DNA of 41,672 bases, taken from positions 1-41,672 of the forward strand of contig JALGZR010000017.1 in NCBI GenBank assembly GCA_025774805.1, written 5' to 3'. Below, one piece after another: positions 4,376 to 41,672 of this stretch (position 1 is the stretch's first letter; each line of letters begins with the position of its first letter). The notes under the pieces are model-generated. The model was not told where the DNA came from, did not search any database, and was given only the letters and a program-made list of their open reading frames with translations. The DNA is from a bacterium (lineage in GTDB: Bacteria > ARS69). The position numbers and the translations under genes are program-made.

Positions 4376-4461
4376 CGGGGGATCTCCGGGACGGATCTCG
4401 GGTGAAGAATGGAGCACGCCCGAGGAACGCGCAAGGGGCTCCGAGGTTCCACTTGGATCTC

Positions 4462-4640
4462 CTGGCCTGCGTTTCTCATCAGACGCGTCGCGAGGCTGCG
4501 GATCGTCGTGTCTGGCGAGGAGGTGGGGTGGTTTCGCCCGAGGCGGGGCCATGGCCCCGTCGCAGGGCGGAGGCACCTCAACGACGAAGCATGCGCGCCA
4601 GGCCGCCGCAGCAGCAGAGGCTGGTGAGCTTGCAGGCCAG
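4462..4640 (+). repeat. Palindromic intergenic element B1
   Basis: A 179-bp element bounded by CTGGCCTGC (4462-4470) and its inverted copy GCAGGCCAG (4632-4640). The apical hairpin CGGGGC/GCCCCG is at 4544-4549/4554-4559 with loop CATG. It matches elements at 7665-7838 and 27534-27715 over their whole length. It lies upstream of the 3482-4375 gene and just beyond the HU terminator. Together with that terminator it fills the 341-bp gap 4376-4716; the remaining 86 bp next to the gene show nothing recognisable. Confidence 0.88.
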
Positions 4641-4643
4641 ACA

Positions 4644-4678
4644 AAGGGCAGGCCGCTCGACTCCGGCGGCCTGCCCTT
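4644..4678 (-). terminator. Rho-independent terminator of the first HU gene
   Basis: A perfect 13-bp stem, AAGGGCAGGCCGC (4644-4656) and its complement (4666-4678), with a 9-nt loop. On the minus strand it is followed by TTTGTCT. It begins about 39 nt after the HU stop codon at 4717. Confidence 0.8.
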
Positions 4679-4716
4679 CTCATGCTCATGGGTCTGAACG
4701 GGGTCGGAATCCCCCC

Positions 4717-4986
4717 CTACAGCATCGTCTTGAAGGCCTTGCCGGGACGGAAGCGGACGGTCTTCGAGGCCTTGATCATGATCGTCTCGCCGGTCTGCGG
4801 GTTGCGCCCCTTGCGCGCCTTCCGCTTGACCGTGTTGAAGCTTCCGAAACCGACGATCGAGACGCCGTTCTTCTTCTTCGCGCCCTTCTTGATCGTGTTG
4901 ATCGTGGCGTTGACGGCGTTCGTCGCGTCCTTCTTCGTAAGCCTGGTCTGGCGAACCACGGCCTCGATGAGCTCAGCCTTATTCAT
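4717..4986 (-). CDS. HU family DNA-binding protein (copy 1)
   Basis: An 89-aa histone-like nucleoid protein that binds and bends DNA as a dimer. The sequence has the full HU/IHF fold: N-terminal helices ([20 protein letters not shown]), then the signature region [18 protein letters not shown] with the QTGE beta-arm and the C-terminal helix. The start at 4986 (MNKAEL) is chosen because GGAGG lies 9 nt upstream; the ATG at 4995 (MTKMNKAEL) would leave almost no spacing. The C-terminal end ([10 protein letters not shown]) is typical of HU rather than IHF. It has its own strong terminator. A second HU gene lies about 500 bp upstream on the same strand, with a small HTH gene between, so the cell has at least two HU paralogues. 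Confidence 0.95.
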
Positions 4987-5193
4987 CTTCGTCATCCTCC
5001 ACACACGGGTGGCTTGACTCGTTTCGTCCTAACTTCGGTTCATGAGGCGGCTCGTCTTGCACGAACCGACGGCAAGCTATCAGCGGAGGACCGCAGCGTC
5101 AATGGGTTTCGTGGGGTGGGGAGCTCTGAGACCGCTCGGGGCACGGATCTCCGAGAGAGAGGACACGCAACTCCAGTACTGCCGAGGATCCGG

Positions 5194-5379
5194 TCACCTG
5201 CGGATCGGCGAGTCCTTGCCCCGCCGAAACAGCTCGTCGAGCCTCTCGCGCTTGAACCGCCATTGGCCGCCGATCTTGATCCCGGGCACCTGCCCGCTCT
5301 TGGCCAATCGGTAGAGAGTGCCCTTCTTGATGTTCAGGTAGACCGCAGCCTCGGTGATGTCCATGATGTCGGAAACCAT
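5194..5379 (-). CDS. Small MerR/excisionase-type helix-turn-helix protein
   Basis: A 61-aa protein consisting almost entirely of one HTH_17-type winged helix (MDITEAAVYLNIKKGTLYRL, then GQVPGIKIGGQWRFKRERLD). This is the domain found in phage excisionases, BldC-like regulators and DNA-modification helpers. The ATG at 5379 (MVSDIMDITEA) is preferred because GGGAG lies 5 nt upstream; the open frame extends 23 codons further with no ribosome-binding site. It sits alone between two HU genes (110 bp and 207 bp away). No integrase or phage genes are near, so a resident regulator or architectural protein is more likely than a true excisionase. Confidence 0.85.
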   Translation of the reverse strand: MVSDIMDITEAAVYLNIKKGTLYRLAKSGQVPGIKIGGQWRFKRERLDELFRRGKDSPIRR

Positions 5380-5489
5380 TTGCTCTCCCGCCCGGGTGGG
5401 CGCGACCTCCTCAGGGTTGCGTCTCCCGGATCTTCCTCGAGTTGTCATTGCCAGGGTGTCTTGCAGGAGTCATCGATCCGGGGTCAACC

Positions 5490-5780
5490 TCAAAGGCCGC
5501 CCCCGTCCTCCGTGATTCGATCCTTCAATTCCTTCGAGACCTTGAAGATGGCAACCTTTCGGGGGGGGAGCTGAACCGGGTCACCCGTCCGTGGATTTCG
5601 GGCGGTCCGGGCCTTGCGCTGCTTGACCTTGAACGTGCCGAATCCACGAATCTCGATGTGTCGGCCCTCTCGGAGGGCTTCCTTCACCGCTTTGATCAGA
5701 TGGTCGACGGCCAGGGCCGTGTCCTTTTTCGTGAGGCCGGTGGAGTTCGCGATCTCCTCCACCAGATCGGCTTTCGTCAT
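5490..5780 (-). CDS. HU/IHF family DNA-binding protein (copy 2)
   Basis: A 96-aa HU-fold protein: N-terminal helices (MTKADLVEEIANSTGLTKKD), then RGFGTFKVKQRKARTARNP with the RTGDPV arm. The C-terminus has the IHF-like VAIFKVSKELKDRI. It is only moderately similar to the other HU copy, so the two are diverged paralogues, perhaps one HU-like and one IHF-like. The ATG at 5780 has GGAGAGG about 9 nt upstream. A clear promoter lies at 5872-5900. The C-terminal tail after the fold is short and glycine-rich. Confidence 0.94.
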   Translation of the reverse strand: MTKADLVEEIANSTGLTKKDTALAVDHLIKAVKEALREGRHIEIRGFGTFKVKQRKARTARNPRTGDPVQLPPRKVAIFKVSKELKDRITEDGGGL

Positions 5781-5871
5781 GCCTACCCCTCTCCAGTGGG
5801 ACGCGAGTCAAGGAACCGGAAGAACGCCGCGCCGAATCGAAGATCCGACAAGGACGCACGCTGATGACGAA

Positions 5872-5900
5872 AACATAGCAAGCGGGGAATCGCGGGTCAA
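5872..5900 (-). promoter_or_regulatory. Sigma70-type promoter of the second HU gene
   Basis: On the minus strand TTGACC (5900-5895), a 17-bp spacer and TATGTT (5877-5872) form a good housekeeping promoter. Transcription would start near 5865, leaving a leader of about 85 nt. It drives the HU gene and possibly the HTH gene behind it. Confidence 0.65.
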
Positions 5901-6142
5901 GCGGGTTGCGCGCTCTCTCCGGTGTCCGCCTGGAGGTTGGGAGTCCATCTTCGATCGAATTCTGATGAACAATCTGTAAGCATTTATTGACCATTCAGTT
6001 ACAGGTGCCACGCTTCATGCGACACCTGCGCCGACCCGCGGAACTTCCTGCCGTTCAATGAGTTCCTACGCACTTTCCCGGCGCGGAAGGGGACCGTACG
6101 GCCCCTCTGAGACTGCACGAAGCCGCGAAGAGGCGGGACCTC
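5901..6142. other. Intergenic stretch with an AT-rich patch and hairpins
   Basis: No gene is visible in the remainder of the 5781-6142 gap. The patch 5955-6000 is markedly AT-rich for this genome. Next to it is a hairpin: CAGGTG (6002-6007) pairs with CACCTG (6023-6028), with a nested CGC/GCG. A second inverted repeat, GGGGaCCGTACGGcCCC at 6089-6105, lies 38-54 nt beyond the M20 stop codon and could act as a weak terminator for that gene. Confidence 0.4.
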
Positions 6143-7537
6143 TCAGCCGCTTCCCCTCCCCGTCAGCGCGCCCTGCATCTCGTGGAGATAGTGGGCCGAG
6201 CTGAGGATGCCGGCGTGGAAGCTCCCCAGGTCGAAGTGCTCATTCGGACCGTGGGCTCCCTCGTCGTGCTGTCCGAGCCCCATCATCACCGCGGGGATTC
6301 CCAGGGCCTCCGTGAGCATCGAGACGATCGGAATCGATCCGCCCTCCCGGGTCGGCACGGGAGTCCTTCCGAACCCCCTCTCGATCGCCCGAAACGCGGC
6401 CTGCACCGCGGGATGATCGAGGGAAGACGTCCAGGGGCGGCCCTCGTGGAGCTCGAGGAACCTCTCGAGGACCATGGTCTCGGGAAGGTGGCGATCGAGG
6501 TGGGCTCTCGTCTTCGCCGCGATGTCGGCGGGAGTCTGGTTCGGCACGAGACGCATGCTGATCTTCGCGCTCGCCCGGGCGGGGAGCACGGTCATGCTCC
6601 CCTCCCCGGTGAACCCACCCCACACGCCGTTGACGTCGAGCGAGGGCCGCGACCAGATCCGCTCCAGGAGCCCGCGCCCCCTCTCGCCGTAGAGAACGGG
6701 GGCCCCGGTCATCTGCAGGTAGCGCTCTTCCGGGGCGGGCAAGTTCGCCCAGGAGGACTTCTCCTCCTCGGGGGGCTCCACCACGTCATCGTAGAACCCC
6801 TCGATGAGAACGCGCCCCGTCGCCCGGTCCTTGAGCGAGGAGAGGAGGTGGGCGATCGCCATCGCCGGATTGTCCACGGCCCCCCCGAAAGCCCCGGAGT
6901 GCAGGTCGGTGGTCGGGCCCCGGAGGGTGAGCTCGAAGTAGGCGATGCCGCGGAGACCGGTGCAGAGCGACGGGACCCCCGGCGCGTACATCGCCGTGTC
7001 GGAGATGACGAGGGCGTCGCAGGCGAGCTTCTCCCGGTGCGCCCGCACGAAGGCCTCGAGGTTCTCGCTTCCGATCTCCTCTTCCCCCTCGATCAGAAAC
7101 TTCACGTTGACCGGGAGGCTCCGGCTCGCGGCGAGGTGCGCCTCCACCGCGAGCACGTGGGTGAGGAGCTGTCCCTTGTCGTCCGTGGCGCCGCGCGCCC
7201 AGATCTTCCCCTCCTCGATCCGGGGCTCGAAGGGAGGCGAGGTCCACTCCGAGGGATCGCCGATCGGCTGCACGTCGTAGTGACCGTAGACGAGAATCGT
7301 GGGCGCATCGGGCCGGCCCCTCCACTCCGCGTAGACGACCGGATGCCTCGGCGTGTCGTGGATCTCGACCGTCGGCAGGCCGGCCTCGCGAAGGGTCTCG
7401 GCCATGAACTCGGCCGCCCGGACCACGTCGCCGCGGTGATCGGGATCGGTGCTGATGCTCGGGATGCGGAGGAACTCCTCCAGGATCTGCCGGGAGCGTT
7501 CCCGACGGGTCTCGATCGCGCGAACGACGGCTTCCAA
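6143..7537 (-). CDS. M20 family metallo-dipeptidase (CNDP/DapE-like)
   Basis: A 464-aa cytosolic zinc-dependent peptidase of the M20 family, expected to cleave dipeptides or similar N-acyl substrates. Family motifs appear in order: YGHYDVQP near residue 84 (first metal ligand His with catalytic Asp two positions on), ARGATDDKG near 114, IEGEEEIGS near 150 (general-base Glu pair), VISDT, the dimerisation/lid domain with LHSGAFGG, and the final HGPNE metal ligand. Length fits the family. The TTG at 7537 is taken as start because AAGGAGGA lies 5 nt upstream; a GTG at 7573 would add 12 residues but has no comparable ribosome-binding site. No signal peptide. It is flanked upstream by repeats B2 and A2 and appears monocistronic. 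Substrate cannot be read from sequence. Confidence 0.92.
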   Translation of the reverse strand: MEAVVRAIETRRERSRQILEEFLRIPSISTDPDHRGDVVRAAEFMAETLREAGLPTVEIHDTPRHPVVYAEWRGRPDAPTILVYGHYDVQPIGDPSEWTSPPFEPRIEEGKIWARGATDDKGQLLTHVLAVEAHLAASRSLPVNVKFLIEGEEEIGSENLEAFVRAHREKLACDALVISDTAMYAPGVPSLCTGLRGIAYFELTLRGPTTDLHSGAFGGAVDNPAMAIAHLLSSLKDRATGRVLIEGFYDDVVEPPEEEKSSWANLPAPEERYLQMTGAPVLYGERGRGLLERIWSRPSLDVNGVWGGFTGEGSMTVLPARASAKISMRLVPNQTPADIAAKTRAHLDRHLPETMVLERFLELHEGRPWTSSLDHPAVQAAFRAIERGFGRTPVPTREGGSIPIVSMLTEALGIPAVMMGLGQHDEGAHGPNEHFDLGSFHAGILSSAHYLHEMQGALTGRGSG

Positions 7538-7664
7538 AGCGCTCCTCCTTGCCGTGGGTCTCTTCGGCGGCACGGTCGTCCAAGATAGCAGCCACCCTTT
7601 CGGGCGACCACGGAAAGGGGCGGCCGCCGGGGAGAGCGGCCGCGACAGGCCCGGCGTGAGGCCA

Positions 7665-7838
7665 GCCTGCTTTTCTCACCAGGCTCGTCGCGAGGCTGCG
7701 GATCGTCGTGGCTGGCGAGGAGATGGGGTGCTTTCGCCCGTGGCGGGGCCGTGGCCCCGTCGCAGGGCGGAAGCGCGCCAGCGACGAAGCCAGGCGGCCT
7801 CGCCGCTGCCGCAGCAGAGACTCGTGAGACGTGCAGGC
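7665..7838 (+). repeat. Palindromic intergenic element B2
   Basis: A 174-bp element running from GCCTGC (7665-7670) to GCAGGC (7833-7838). The apical hairpin CGGGGC/GCCCCG is at 7744-7749/7754-7759. It is nearly identical to elements at 4462-4640 and 27534-27715. It is joined head to tail with element A2, one base apart. A separate 7-bp stem (CGGCCGC 7621-7627 with GCGGCCG 7636-7642) lies between it and the M20 gene. With A2 it accounts for most of the 480-bp gap 7538-8017. Confidence 0.9.
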
Positions 7839-7839
7839 A

Positions 7840-8019
7840 AGCCCGGACTATTCATGAAGATCGTCGCGAGATTGCGGAGACGCCCACCGGACGGGCACCC
7901 GCAGGGGTTTGGACCCGAGGCGTATCTCGACGATACGTCGCAGAGTACGGACCCCGAGGACGCCCGTCCGGTGGCGTGGATCCGCGATCGCAGCAGATCC
8001 TTCGTGAATAGTCCGGGCT
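7840..8019 (+). repeat. Palindromic intergenic element A2
   Basis: A 180-bp element with 19-bp terminal inverted repeats, AGCCCGGACTATTCATGAA (7840-7858) and a one-mismatch inverted copy (8001-8019). Inner arms CCACCGGACGGGC (7884-7896) and GCCCGTCCGGTGG (7962-7974) are exact; the apical stem CGTATC/GATACG is at 7921-7926/7932-7937. Its right end overlaps the TAG stop codon (8018-8020) of the LTD gene. Confidence 0.9.
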
Positions 8020-9430
8020 AGGGTCGGTAGAGCGCCTTGACGCGAGCCCAGCTCTCCCGGGGGAGGGCGGACGGAGAGCCGTTCGGGGCGCCCGGAGAGA
8101 AGCTCCACCCGAAGCCGGCGTCGGAGGGACGGGTCCACTCCCCGTGACCGTCGGGCAGGCGGATCAGCGACTCATCGGCGCCGGCCTCCGAGCCGTAGGC
8201 GTGGGCGTCGGCCGTCACCCCTTGGACGTTCACCAGACGGACCTCGTCCCCGGTGTTGTTGAGGGAGAGTCCGCCGGTGGAGGCCACGGTCGCCCCGGAG
8301 GGAATCCCGGTCGGAGTACCCCCGCCGAAGACCACGAAGATCTCACCCGGGCCGAGGACCCCACCCTCGCCGAACTCGTGGCGAAGACCCGTCGCGTCGT
8401 GCAGGGACCACCCGGTGATGTCCTGGGGCTCTCCCGACCGGTTGATCACCTCGATGAACTCGTCGTCCGACGTGCTCCGAACGCCGTCGCCGTTCGCGTC
8501 GCCCTCGAGGCCCGCGGGGGGGTCCGCGAGAATCTCGTTCAGCGCGATGGGGGAATCGCTCCCCCCGACGACGATCTCGACCTCGTTCGTCTCCTCGAGA
8601 AGCGCCCCGTCCGACACCCGGACGACGACGCCCAGGACGGTTCCCTCCGGCTGGGCGGGAATCACGATCTCCCACGTCCCGAGGTGGACCGTGCCCTCCA
8701 CCAGGCTCATGGGTTGCGACTGCACGCCGCCCCCGTCGACCGTGAGCCGGAGGACGCACTCGGCGACGCCGTCGGCGTCGCCCGCGGTCGCGCGGACCCC
8801 GATCGGGTCGGCGCTCGTGGGAAACGTCGGCTCGATCTCGACCGAGAGGATCTTCGGGGTCGCGGGGCCCCCGTTCTGTCCCCCGGGAGTGGGCTGGGGA
8901 CCCGTCCCCCCCGGAGCCAGCGCGTCGAACGGAGTCCATGCCGGATCGCCGTCCGGAAGCCGCCCGAGGGAGACGTCGGTGTTGACGTCACCCGAGGTGT
9001 ACGTGAGCTCGTCCAGGAGTGTGGTGTCGCCCCCGGAGGCACGGAAGAGGGAGACCGTGTCCCCCGAGTTGTTGAGGGAGAGCCCGACGGCGGGGAAGCC
9101 GTTCGCCGCCTCCCAGTCGACGGCCAGCTCTCCCGTCAGGAAAAGGTGCTCACCGGGGGCGAGGCTGCCCGAGAGACCGATTCGGGGGGTGCTCGGTCCG
9201 GCTCCGTCCGTCACGAAGTGATCGGTCAGATCCGCGGGCGCGGAGCCGGCGTTGAAGATCTCGACCCACTCGTCCTCCGAGGACGAATAGATGCCGTTGC
9301 CCGTCCAGTCGGTACCGGGGGCCGGAAGCAGCTCGTTGAGCACGAGCTGGGCGCCGGCCCGATCGGCGAAGGCGGCCGCCGCGACCAGCAGTGCAGCGCC
9401 GGCCGCGGGGACCCGTCGTGGGAACCGCAT
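8018..9430 (-). CDS. Exported protein with two lamin-tail domains
   Basis: A 470-aa secreted or surface protein. Residues 1-27 are a signal peptide (cleavage likely after DRAGA). The first LTD follows at once (LVLNELLPAP, then SSEDEWVEIFN, to about residue 185). A central Ig-like region spans about 195-285. A second LTD (IALNEILADPP, then DDEFIEVINRSGEPQDITGW) runs to the end. LTDs are Ig-fold modules found in exported bacterial proteins, often with nucleases or surface enzymes; here no catalytic domain is seen. Asp-rich segments (DANGDGVRSTSDDE) look able to bind calcium. The ATG at 9430 has GGAGG 8 nt upstream. The protein ends in KALYRP with no FlgD-type C-terminal domain, unlike the neighbouring LTD proteins. 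Confidence 0.8.
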   Translation of the reverse strand: MRFPRRVPAAGAALLVAAAAFADRAGAQLVLNELLPAPGTDWTGNGIYSSSEDEWVEIFNAGSAPADLTDHFVTDGAGPSTPRIGLSGSLAPGEHLFLTGELAVDWEAANGFPAVGLSLNNSGDTVSLFRASGGDTTLLDELTYTSGDVNTDVSLGRLPDGDPAWTPFDALAPGGTGPQPTPGGQNGGPATPKILSVEIEPTFPTSADPIGVRATAGDADGVAECVLRLTVDGGGVQSQPMSLVEGTVHLGTWEIVIPAQPEGTVLGVVVRVSDGALLEETNEVEIVVGGSDSPIALNEILADPPAGLEGDANGDGVRSTSDDEFIEVINRSGEPQDITGWSLHDATGLRHEFGEGGVLGPGEIFVVFGGGTPTGIPSGATVASTGGLSLNNTGDEVRLVNVQGVTADAHAYGSEAGADESLIRLPDGHGEWTRPSDAGFGWSFSPGAPNGSPSALPRESWARVKALYRP

Positions 9431-27478: not shown

Positions 27479-27537
27479 CTCTCACCCGCCTCTGCTGCGG
27501 CGGCGGGTCGCCGCGCCGGATGAGGACTGCAGGCTAG
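27470..27537 (-). repeat. Internally deleted B-type element (B3')
   Basis: A 68-bp remnant: the left end GGCCTGCATCTCTCACC (27470-27486) followed by CGCCTCTGCTGCG matches the reverse complement of the right end of a full B element. Its right end TGCAGGCTAG (27528-27537) is the B terminus. It overlaps the left end of element B3 by the shared CTAG. The start codon of the MalG-type permease lies inside it. Confidence 0.7.
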
Positions 27538-27715
27538 CCTGCATTTCTCACCAGGCTCGTCGCGAGGCCGCGGACAGGCGTATATGGCGAGGAGATGGGG
27601 TGCTTTCGCCCGAGGCGGGGCCGTAGCCCCGTCGCAGGGCGGAAGCGCGCCAGCGACGAAGTCAGGCGCGGCTTTGCCGCGGACGCAGCAGAGGCGGGTG
27701 AGATATGCAGGCTAG
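27534..27715 (+). repeat. Palindromic intergenic element B3
   Basis: A 182-bp element bounded by CTAGCCTGCA (27534-27543) and TGCAGGCTAG (27706-27715), an exact inverted repeat. The apical hairpin CGGGGC/GCCCCG is at 27616-27621/27626-27631. It separates two permease genes of one importer. The TAG stop codon of the upstream permease (27712-27714) lies inside its right end. Confidence 0.9.
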
Positions 27716-41529: not shown

Positions 41530-41561
41530 GGGCGCGCTCGGACCACCGGGCCCAAGGTCCT

Positions 41562-41672
41562 AGCCCGGACTATTCATGAAGGGCCGTCGCGAGATCGTGG
41601 AGACGCCCACCGGACGGGCACCCGCAGGGGCTCGAACCCGAGGCGTATCTGAACGATACGTCGCAGGGTGCG
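41562..41672 (+). repeat. Palindromic intergenic element A3 (cut by the window edge)
   Basis: The left 111 bp of an A element: terminal repeat AGCCCGGACTATTCATGAA (41562-41580), the inner arm CCACCGGACGGGC, and apical stem CGTATC/GATACG at 41644-41649/41655-41660. It is preceded by CT, forming the same CTAG seen at other element ends. Same orientation as A2. It lies 32 bp upstream of the carbamate kinase gene; its right half lies outside the window. Confidence 0.88.

Follow-up and report, generated by a model that had tools for sequence, protein, structure and literature searches.

The window, which comprises the first 41,672 bases of contig C87 in a 5.1-Mb assembly of 284 contigs, carries copies of two near-palindromes of about 180 bp, forms A and B (full elements 168-182 bp). 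Form B is present on the plus strand at 4462-4640 (CTGG 4462-4465, element 4466-4636, CCAG 4637-4640; delimited from the sequence), at 7662-7841 (CCAG 7662-7665, element 7666-7837, CAAG 7838-7841) and at 27534-27715, the last two being supported by both sequence and profile search. Form A occupies 772-955 on the minus strand (TTAG 772-775, element 776-951, TCAG 952-955; nhmmer window 951-773, limits from the sequence) and, on the plus strand, 7842-8021 (element 7842-8017, target CTAG 8018-8021) and 41560-41672. The first and second A copies are 89% identical, and the TTAG/TCAG flanks of the first represent a decayed target duplication. The third A element, which starts at 41564, extends past the end of the window: its left half lies inside, and the contig continues (41673-41805) across a 20-N scaffold gap. 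Since this copy is split by the gap and core sequence occurs on either side, what looks like a second core at contig position 41701 probably stems from an overlap in the assembly, not from tandem duplication.

The apical hairpin reads GAGG-CGGGGC-CATG-GCCCCG-TCGCAG in the first B copy (4540-4565, plus strand) and GAGG-CGTATC-TCGAC-GATACG-TCGCAG in the second A copy (7917-7943, plus strand). A first-pass annotation of this DNA had described the two forms as homologous, which is supported here, and its apical stems were recovered at the same sites: CGTATC/GATACG in form A (856-872 on the minus strand, 7921-7937 and 41644-41660) and CGGGGC/GCCCCG in form B (4544-4559, 7744-7759 and 27616-27631). 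The flanks listed as common to both forms, GAGGCG / CGTCGCAG and GTCGCGAG / GCAGCAGA, are present with small deviations in single copies, the A copy at 7842 reading CGTCGCAGAG and the B copy at 7744 reading CCCGTGGCG.

The B and A copies within 7662-8021 lie directly against each other, with one CTAG-like tetranucleotide (CAAG) in common, as expected for insertion of one element into the target site of the other. Similar tandem arrays occur at loci L163 and L049. Next to the B copy at 4462 lie three minus-strand genes (4717-5004, 5194-5448 and 5490-5780; assigned by reading the sequence only): two that resemble HU/IHF DNA-binding genes and, between them, a small one of helix-turn-helix (excisionase-like) type.

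Copy number and palindromic structure

Forms A and B are a genome-wide repeat and not an isolated RNA gene. A profile search of 1.66 Mb, about one third of the genome taken around matches, returned 26 full A and 75 full B copies as well as truncated A copies. Genome-wide searches with a single copy as query yielded at least 40 B copies that are complete or almost so, and about 37 A copies, partial ones included. The pattern GAGGCG-N8-24-CGTCGCAG matches 90 times in the genome and its reverse 11 times, so that the repeat lies far outside what chance would give. Both forms are imperfect palindromes over their full length, the reverse strand of an A copy matching at 69-76%. The predicted minimum free energy is -121 kcal/mol for form A (z -13.4) and -108 kcal/mol for form B (z -5.7). 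The ends are CTAGCCCGGACTATTCATGAA in form A and CTAGCCTGCATTTCTCACC in form B. No coding capacity was found within the elements, and the ORFs called there merely end inside them. Characteristic features of MITEs are present: small size (in MITEs about 70-300 bp) with no coding capacity, terminal inverted repeats and multiple dispersed copies.

The A end is absent from the four other genomes of the phylum. Viral contigs contain one match to the A end and none to the B end, and the plasmids searched contain no form B. A tRNA-like reading of GGTTCGAGCCCC was rejected, as ARAGORN finds no tRNA.

Terminal repeats, target sites and the IS1380 family

The terminal inverted repeats of about 20 bp match the ends of autonomous IS1380 elements. 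In one of these (L196/L281) the ends, CTAGCCCGGGTTATTCATGAA / TTCATGAATAATCCGGGCTAG, are identical to form A at 19-20 of 21 positions; at L196 the two ends lie 1,702 bp apart and enclose a 456-aa protein that matches PF13701 (DDE_Tnp_1_4, the IS1380 transposase family) with E=7e-117. A second, broken transposase enclosed in this way (L206) matches at 8e-24. Among 20 genomes searched with PF13701 there were 11 matches, including six distinct IS1380 loci with a TTCATGAATAATCCGGGCTAG-type end at 0-3 mismatches (L281, L287, L282, L284, L285, and L288/L291, which form one broken element). Ends of this kind, with CTAG before them, are also found in named IS1380 elements from plasmids. An Acidovorax IS1380 element has CTAGCCCGGATATTTCAC at both ends; the ISPosp7 end, CTAGCCTGAATATTTCACC, agrees with form B at 16 of 19 positions; and that of ISNha3, CTAGCCCGTCTTATTCGTGAG, is closely resembled by ISBdi2, the form of the end in these two being CTAGCCCGTCTTATTCGT. 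Because their ends match those of IS1380 elements, A and B are very probably two related families of MITEs belonging to the IS1380 (PF13701) transposase family, each with its own subtype of the IS1380 end, an identity that the first-pass annotation had not recognised.

The 21-mer end TTCATGAATAATCCGGGCTAG occurs in at least 120 GTDB stretches, which include Myxococcota, Mariprofundus, Sedimenticola, Burkholderiales, Nitrospira, Planctomycetota, Armatimonadota, Krumholzibacteriia and Pyrinomonadaceae. At most loci among the matches listed, the end has an inverted partner 105-230 bp away, with modal distances of 168 and 181 bp. The host genome contains only one PF13701 fragment (131 aa, contig C17) in its 284 contigs, and for most of the copy-rich genomes among the 20 searched no IS1380 gene was seen; the mobilising enzyme may therefore have been lost, have escaped assembly or be a different one.

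The target is a 4-bp YTAR duplication, mostly CTAG, and CTAG/CTAG is the commonest pair of flanks in the host genome (8 A and 13 B copies). A Nitrospira copy (L143) has TTAA on both sides; the tetranucleotide therefore represents the YTAR target in duplicate and does not belong to the repeat itself. The empty orthologous site that was found belongs to a Nitrospira relative (L112) rather than to any copy of form A or B. The flanks of L112, joined over one CTAG, align uninterrupted in four genomes of the same genus (G078, G061, G071 and G051). The occupied site, which is also occupied in G070, G083 and G043, reads CCGGT-CTAG-element-CTAG-GCTG, and the empty site CCGGT-GTAA-GCTG (with slightly different bases in G061 and G071). 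At the level of sequence, these comparisons demonstrate IS1380-type ends, a target duplication, many gene-less copies, an empty site in Nitrospira and relatives across phyla.

The 4-bp target would account for the position of elements exactly at gene stop codons. Among 17 Nitrospira copies, nine have an ORF stop located precisely in the terminal YTAR; the window offers an example in the ORF called at 8018-9430 (minus strand), whose stop is the minus-strand TAG of CTAG 8018-8021. In the host genome, the gene 3' ends found near elements lie no more than 6 nt from the element in 15 of 24 cases for form A and 27 of 54 for form B, counts that are approximate because the gene caller was a simple codon-usage script. 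The element strand bearing CGTCGCAG shows a mild bias with respect to flanking tandem genes, being opposite to them in a ratio of 14:5 for A and 26:16 for B.

In the mechanism proposed here, an IS1380 transposase would act in trans on the terminal repeats through a cut-and-paste or related DDE reaction, and would drop the element at CTAG, TTAG or TTAA. Since TAG and TAA stop codons supply such target sites, insertion there would place copies at the 3' ends of genes without disrupting the stop codon. Abundant and hitherto unexplained palindromic repeats of uncultured bacteria, including Nitrospira, Myxococcota, Planctomycetota, Sedimenticola and Krumholzibacteriia, would in this way be tied to one transposase family and to a defined 4-bp target.

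Conservation of the fold between and within families

A cross-family alignment was assembled from 20 elements, of which two are form A, two form B and the remaining 16 are drawn from several phyla. Several rows are Nitrospira sequences and G039 is also represented twice, so that the rows outnumber the lineages. Conserved in the alignment are the terminal repeat, the subterminal motifs CGTMGCGAG (left) and CGCAGYAG (right) and the apical GGCG...CGTYG, and the arms between these motifs are almost unalignable. At the 39 pairs scored, 91.2% of cells are paired and two-sided change is seen at 27, with a covariation score of 0.388 against 0.156 +/- 0.012 for shuffled alignments and at most 0.105 when the pairing is slid. 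The apical helix is 96.8% paired, with two-sided change at six of its eight pairs, and one apical G-U (columns 87-106) is invariant in all 20 elements. The folded hairpin is thus conserved between families through strong two-sided change. The core motifs were absent beside the ends of the autonomous IS1380 elements examined.

The first-pass annotation had taken the paired difference between the A and B apical stems as evidence for a hairpin actively maintained as RNA or single-stranded DNA, in which only the loops vary freely. Its argument from paired change holds between families but not within the genome. Among the collected copies, the apical stem of form A is intact in 24 and changed on one side in two; that of form B is intact in 60 and changed on one side in 14. 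No copy of either form is compensated. These 16 one-sided copies are the very observation that the annotation had named as speaking against its reading, and stem bases, like loops, vary genome-wide, mostly on one side. The contrast between the A and B apical stems was fixed between two old families, and on its own it is no demonstration of maintenance.

Double changes are concentrated elsewhere. In the terminal repeat they number 27 in form A (6.1 when shuffled) and 50 in form B (16.9), in the inner stem 13 (4.4) and 10 (4.4), and in the apical region none in A and five in B (1.4). The excess of matched changes in the terminal repeat is consistent with both ends having to be compatible with a single transposase. 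Within families, compensation is seen in roughly 10-20% of changed-pair cells (in form B, 65 double against 495 other changes), whereas between families about half of the changed cells are double (101 of about 210).

It is also possible, if on balance unlikely, that the two-sided changes are mutational in origin, template switching or gene conversion having copied a change from one arm of the palindrome to the other. The recurrence of matched end changes within single genomes points in this direction, as does a variant end in G057, AATCAT, found at both ends of the same elements. Such copying should however affect the whole stem, and the excess of double changes peaks in the terminal repeat and is slight or lacking at the apex; moreover, the conserved unpaired motifs of the core would require a separate reason.

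Selection of the hairpin by the host at each site, as a functional RNA such as a 3'-UTR stabiliser or a structured small RNA, is improbable. The frequent abutment on gene 3' ends makes transcription of the elements likely, the fold is very stable, and an invariant G-U pair and conserved unpaired apical motifs persist across phyla. Against this, the apical stem changes on one side only, and the transcribed strand shows no preference for G-U over A-C departures. At symmetric pairs (columns), G-T and A-C departures stand at 25:14 in form A, 48:44 in form B, 17:16 in Nitrospira and 11:7 in Sedimenticola, the excess in A stemming largely from a few pairs changed in one subfamily. Once split by transcription direction the departures balance (G-U to A-C 30:36 in A and 69:67 in B), and RNA selection on one strand was accordingly rejected. 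Moreover, at an orthologous Nitrospira site the centre, including the apex, is missing in one species (106 bp, -35 kcal/mol compared with -98), and two other species have a rearranged version of about 240 bp, some 60 bp longer. No Rfam family reached its gathering score anywhere in the window; a permissive scan of 4400-8100 gave two sub-threshold matches (psaA and sR38), neither of them over an element, and no family overlapped an element at E<=1.

In view of the one-sided apical changes, the balanced departures and the mainly terminal position of double changes, it is apparently the transposing lineage that preserves the fold, with no detectable maintenance as a host RNA at individual sites. 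Within A and B, variation in stem columns is about half that in unpaired ones, so that some constraint on the stem in place may exist. Under the IS1380 mechanism, the palindrome and its core (subterminal CGTMGCGAG / CGCAGYAG, apical GGCG-stem-loop-stem-CGTYG) would be preserved in lineages that are still transposing and would decay in settled copies, where degeneration is indeed seen in the one-sided stem changes and at the orthologous Nitrospira site. For RNA discovery this is a caution: strong covariation across genomes can stem from mobile palindromes and not from maintained host RNAs. A requirement for the conserved fold as single-stranded RNA or DNA during mobility, for example as a strand bound by the transposase or a host factor, seems doubtful. 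If it did exist, the element would be structure-dependent and so differ from a MITE whose ends alone are recognised. The conserved core poses a testable question, namely whether a MITE of a DDE transposase can depend on an internal fold for its movement.

Relation to known elements and derivative forms

IS1380 insertion sequences (IS1380A, ISPosp7, ISNha3 and ISBdi2; PF13701) have the same terminal repeats, CTAGCCYG..TWTTCAY, with the flanking CTAG in the same position. They differ from A and B in carrying a transposase gene and in having no long palindromic core. MITEs with stable stem-loops beside genes are already well known (PMC10969869, PMC3733652), with Correia/NEMIS, ERIC and Nezha among those named in PMC3733652. 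Bacterial MITEs have in common with A and B their short, gene-less structure, terminal inverted repeats, target duplication and high copy number (PMC10969869), as well as a very stable stem-loop and frequent abutment on genes (PMC10969869, PMC3733652). A and B are tied to a different transposase family, and one core is found across many phyla; the text of the review PMC10969869 does not mention IS1380. The Tn3-derived TIMEs (PMC4133298) are MITEs too, whose members likewise show conserved core motifs and resemble one another in predicted RNA fold, but they have Tn3-family ends, 5-6 bp duplications and a low copy number.

It is scarcely credible that the elements are REPs moved by a REP-associated tyrosine (Y1) transposase, with CGTC and GTAG-like motifs as REP tags: the hairpins and the subterminal CGTC/CGTAG motifs are reminiscent of tagged REPs (PMC3733652), and copy number is high and position intergenic, but there is no Y1_Tnp gene in the genome and the elements are about 180 bp long with 20-bp terminal repeats and 4-bp target duplications, so that REP identity is contradicted by the target duplication and the IS1380-type ends. 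GTAG/CGTC-tagged REPs (PMC3733652) are, like A and B, palindromic, present in several phyla and adjacent to gene 3' ends. They are however single hairpins of 20-40 bp with neither terminal repeats nor target duplication, and RAYT, the partner of GTAG-type REPs, is absent from the host genome. As IS1380-type MITEs, A and B would be of a known kind and unusually widespread. Within an incomplete coverage of the literature, we found no earlier description of this family, of an IS1380 MITE, or of the end sequence or core.

Elements of about 168 bp with the same ends and another apex (AATAC-loop-GTATT followed by GCCGAGG) occur in Sedimenticola, Dokdonella and related loci (L100-L105, L195), which suggests that several core types share the IS1380 end. 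Form B also has derivatives that retain only the ends, of which about 38 were counted with a regular expression reporting each site on both strands. These hairpins measure roughly 55-90 bp (for example L229 13276-13363, L217 15592 and L214 13187), and some comprise little beyond the two terminal repeats. Similar back-to-back repeats of 34 bp are found in other phyla (L106, L185).
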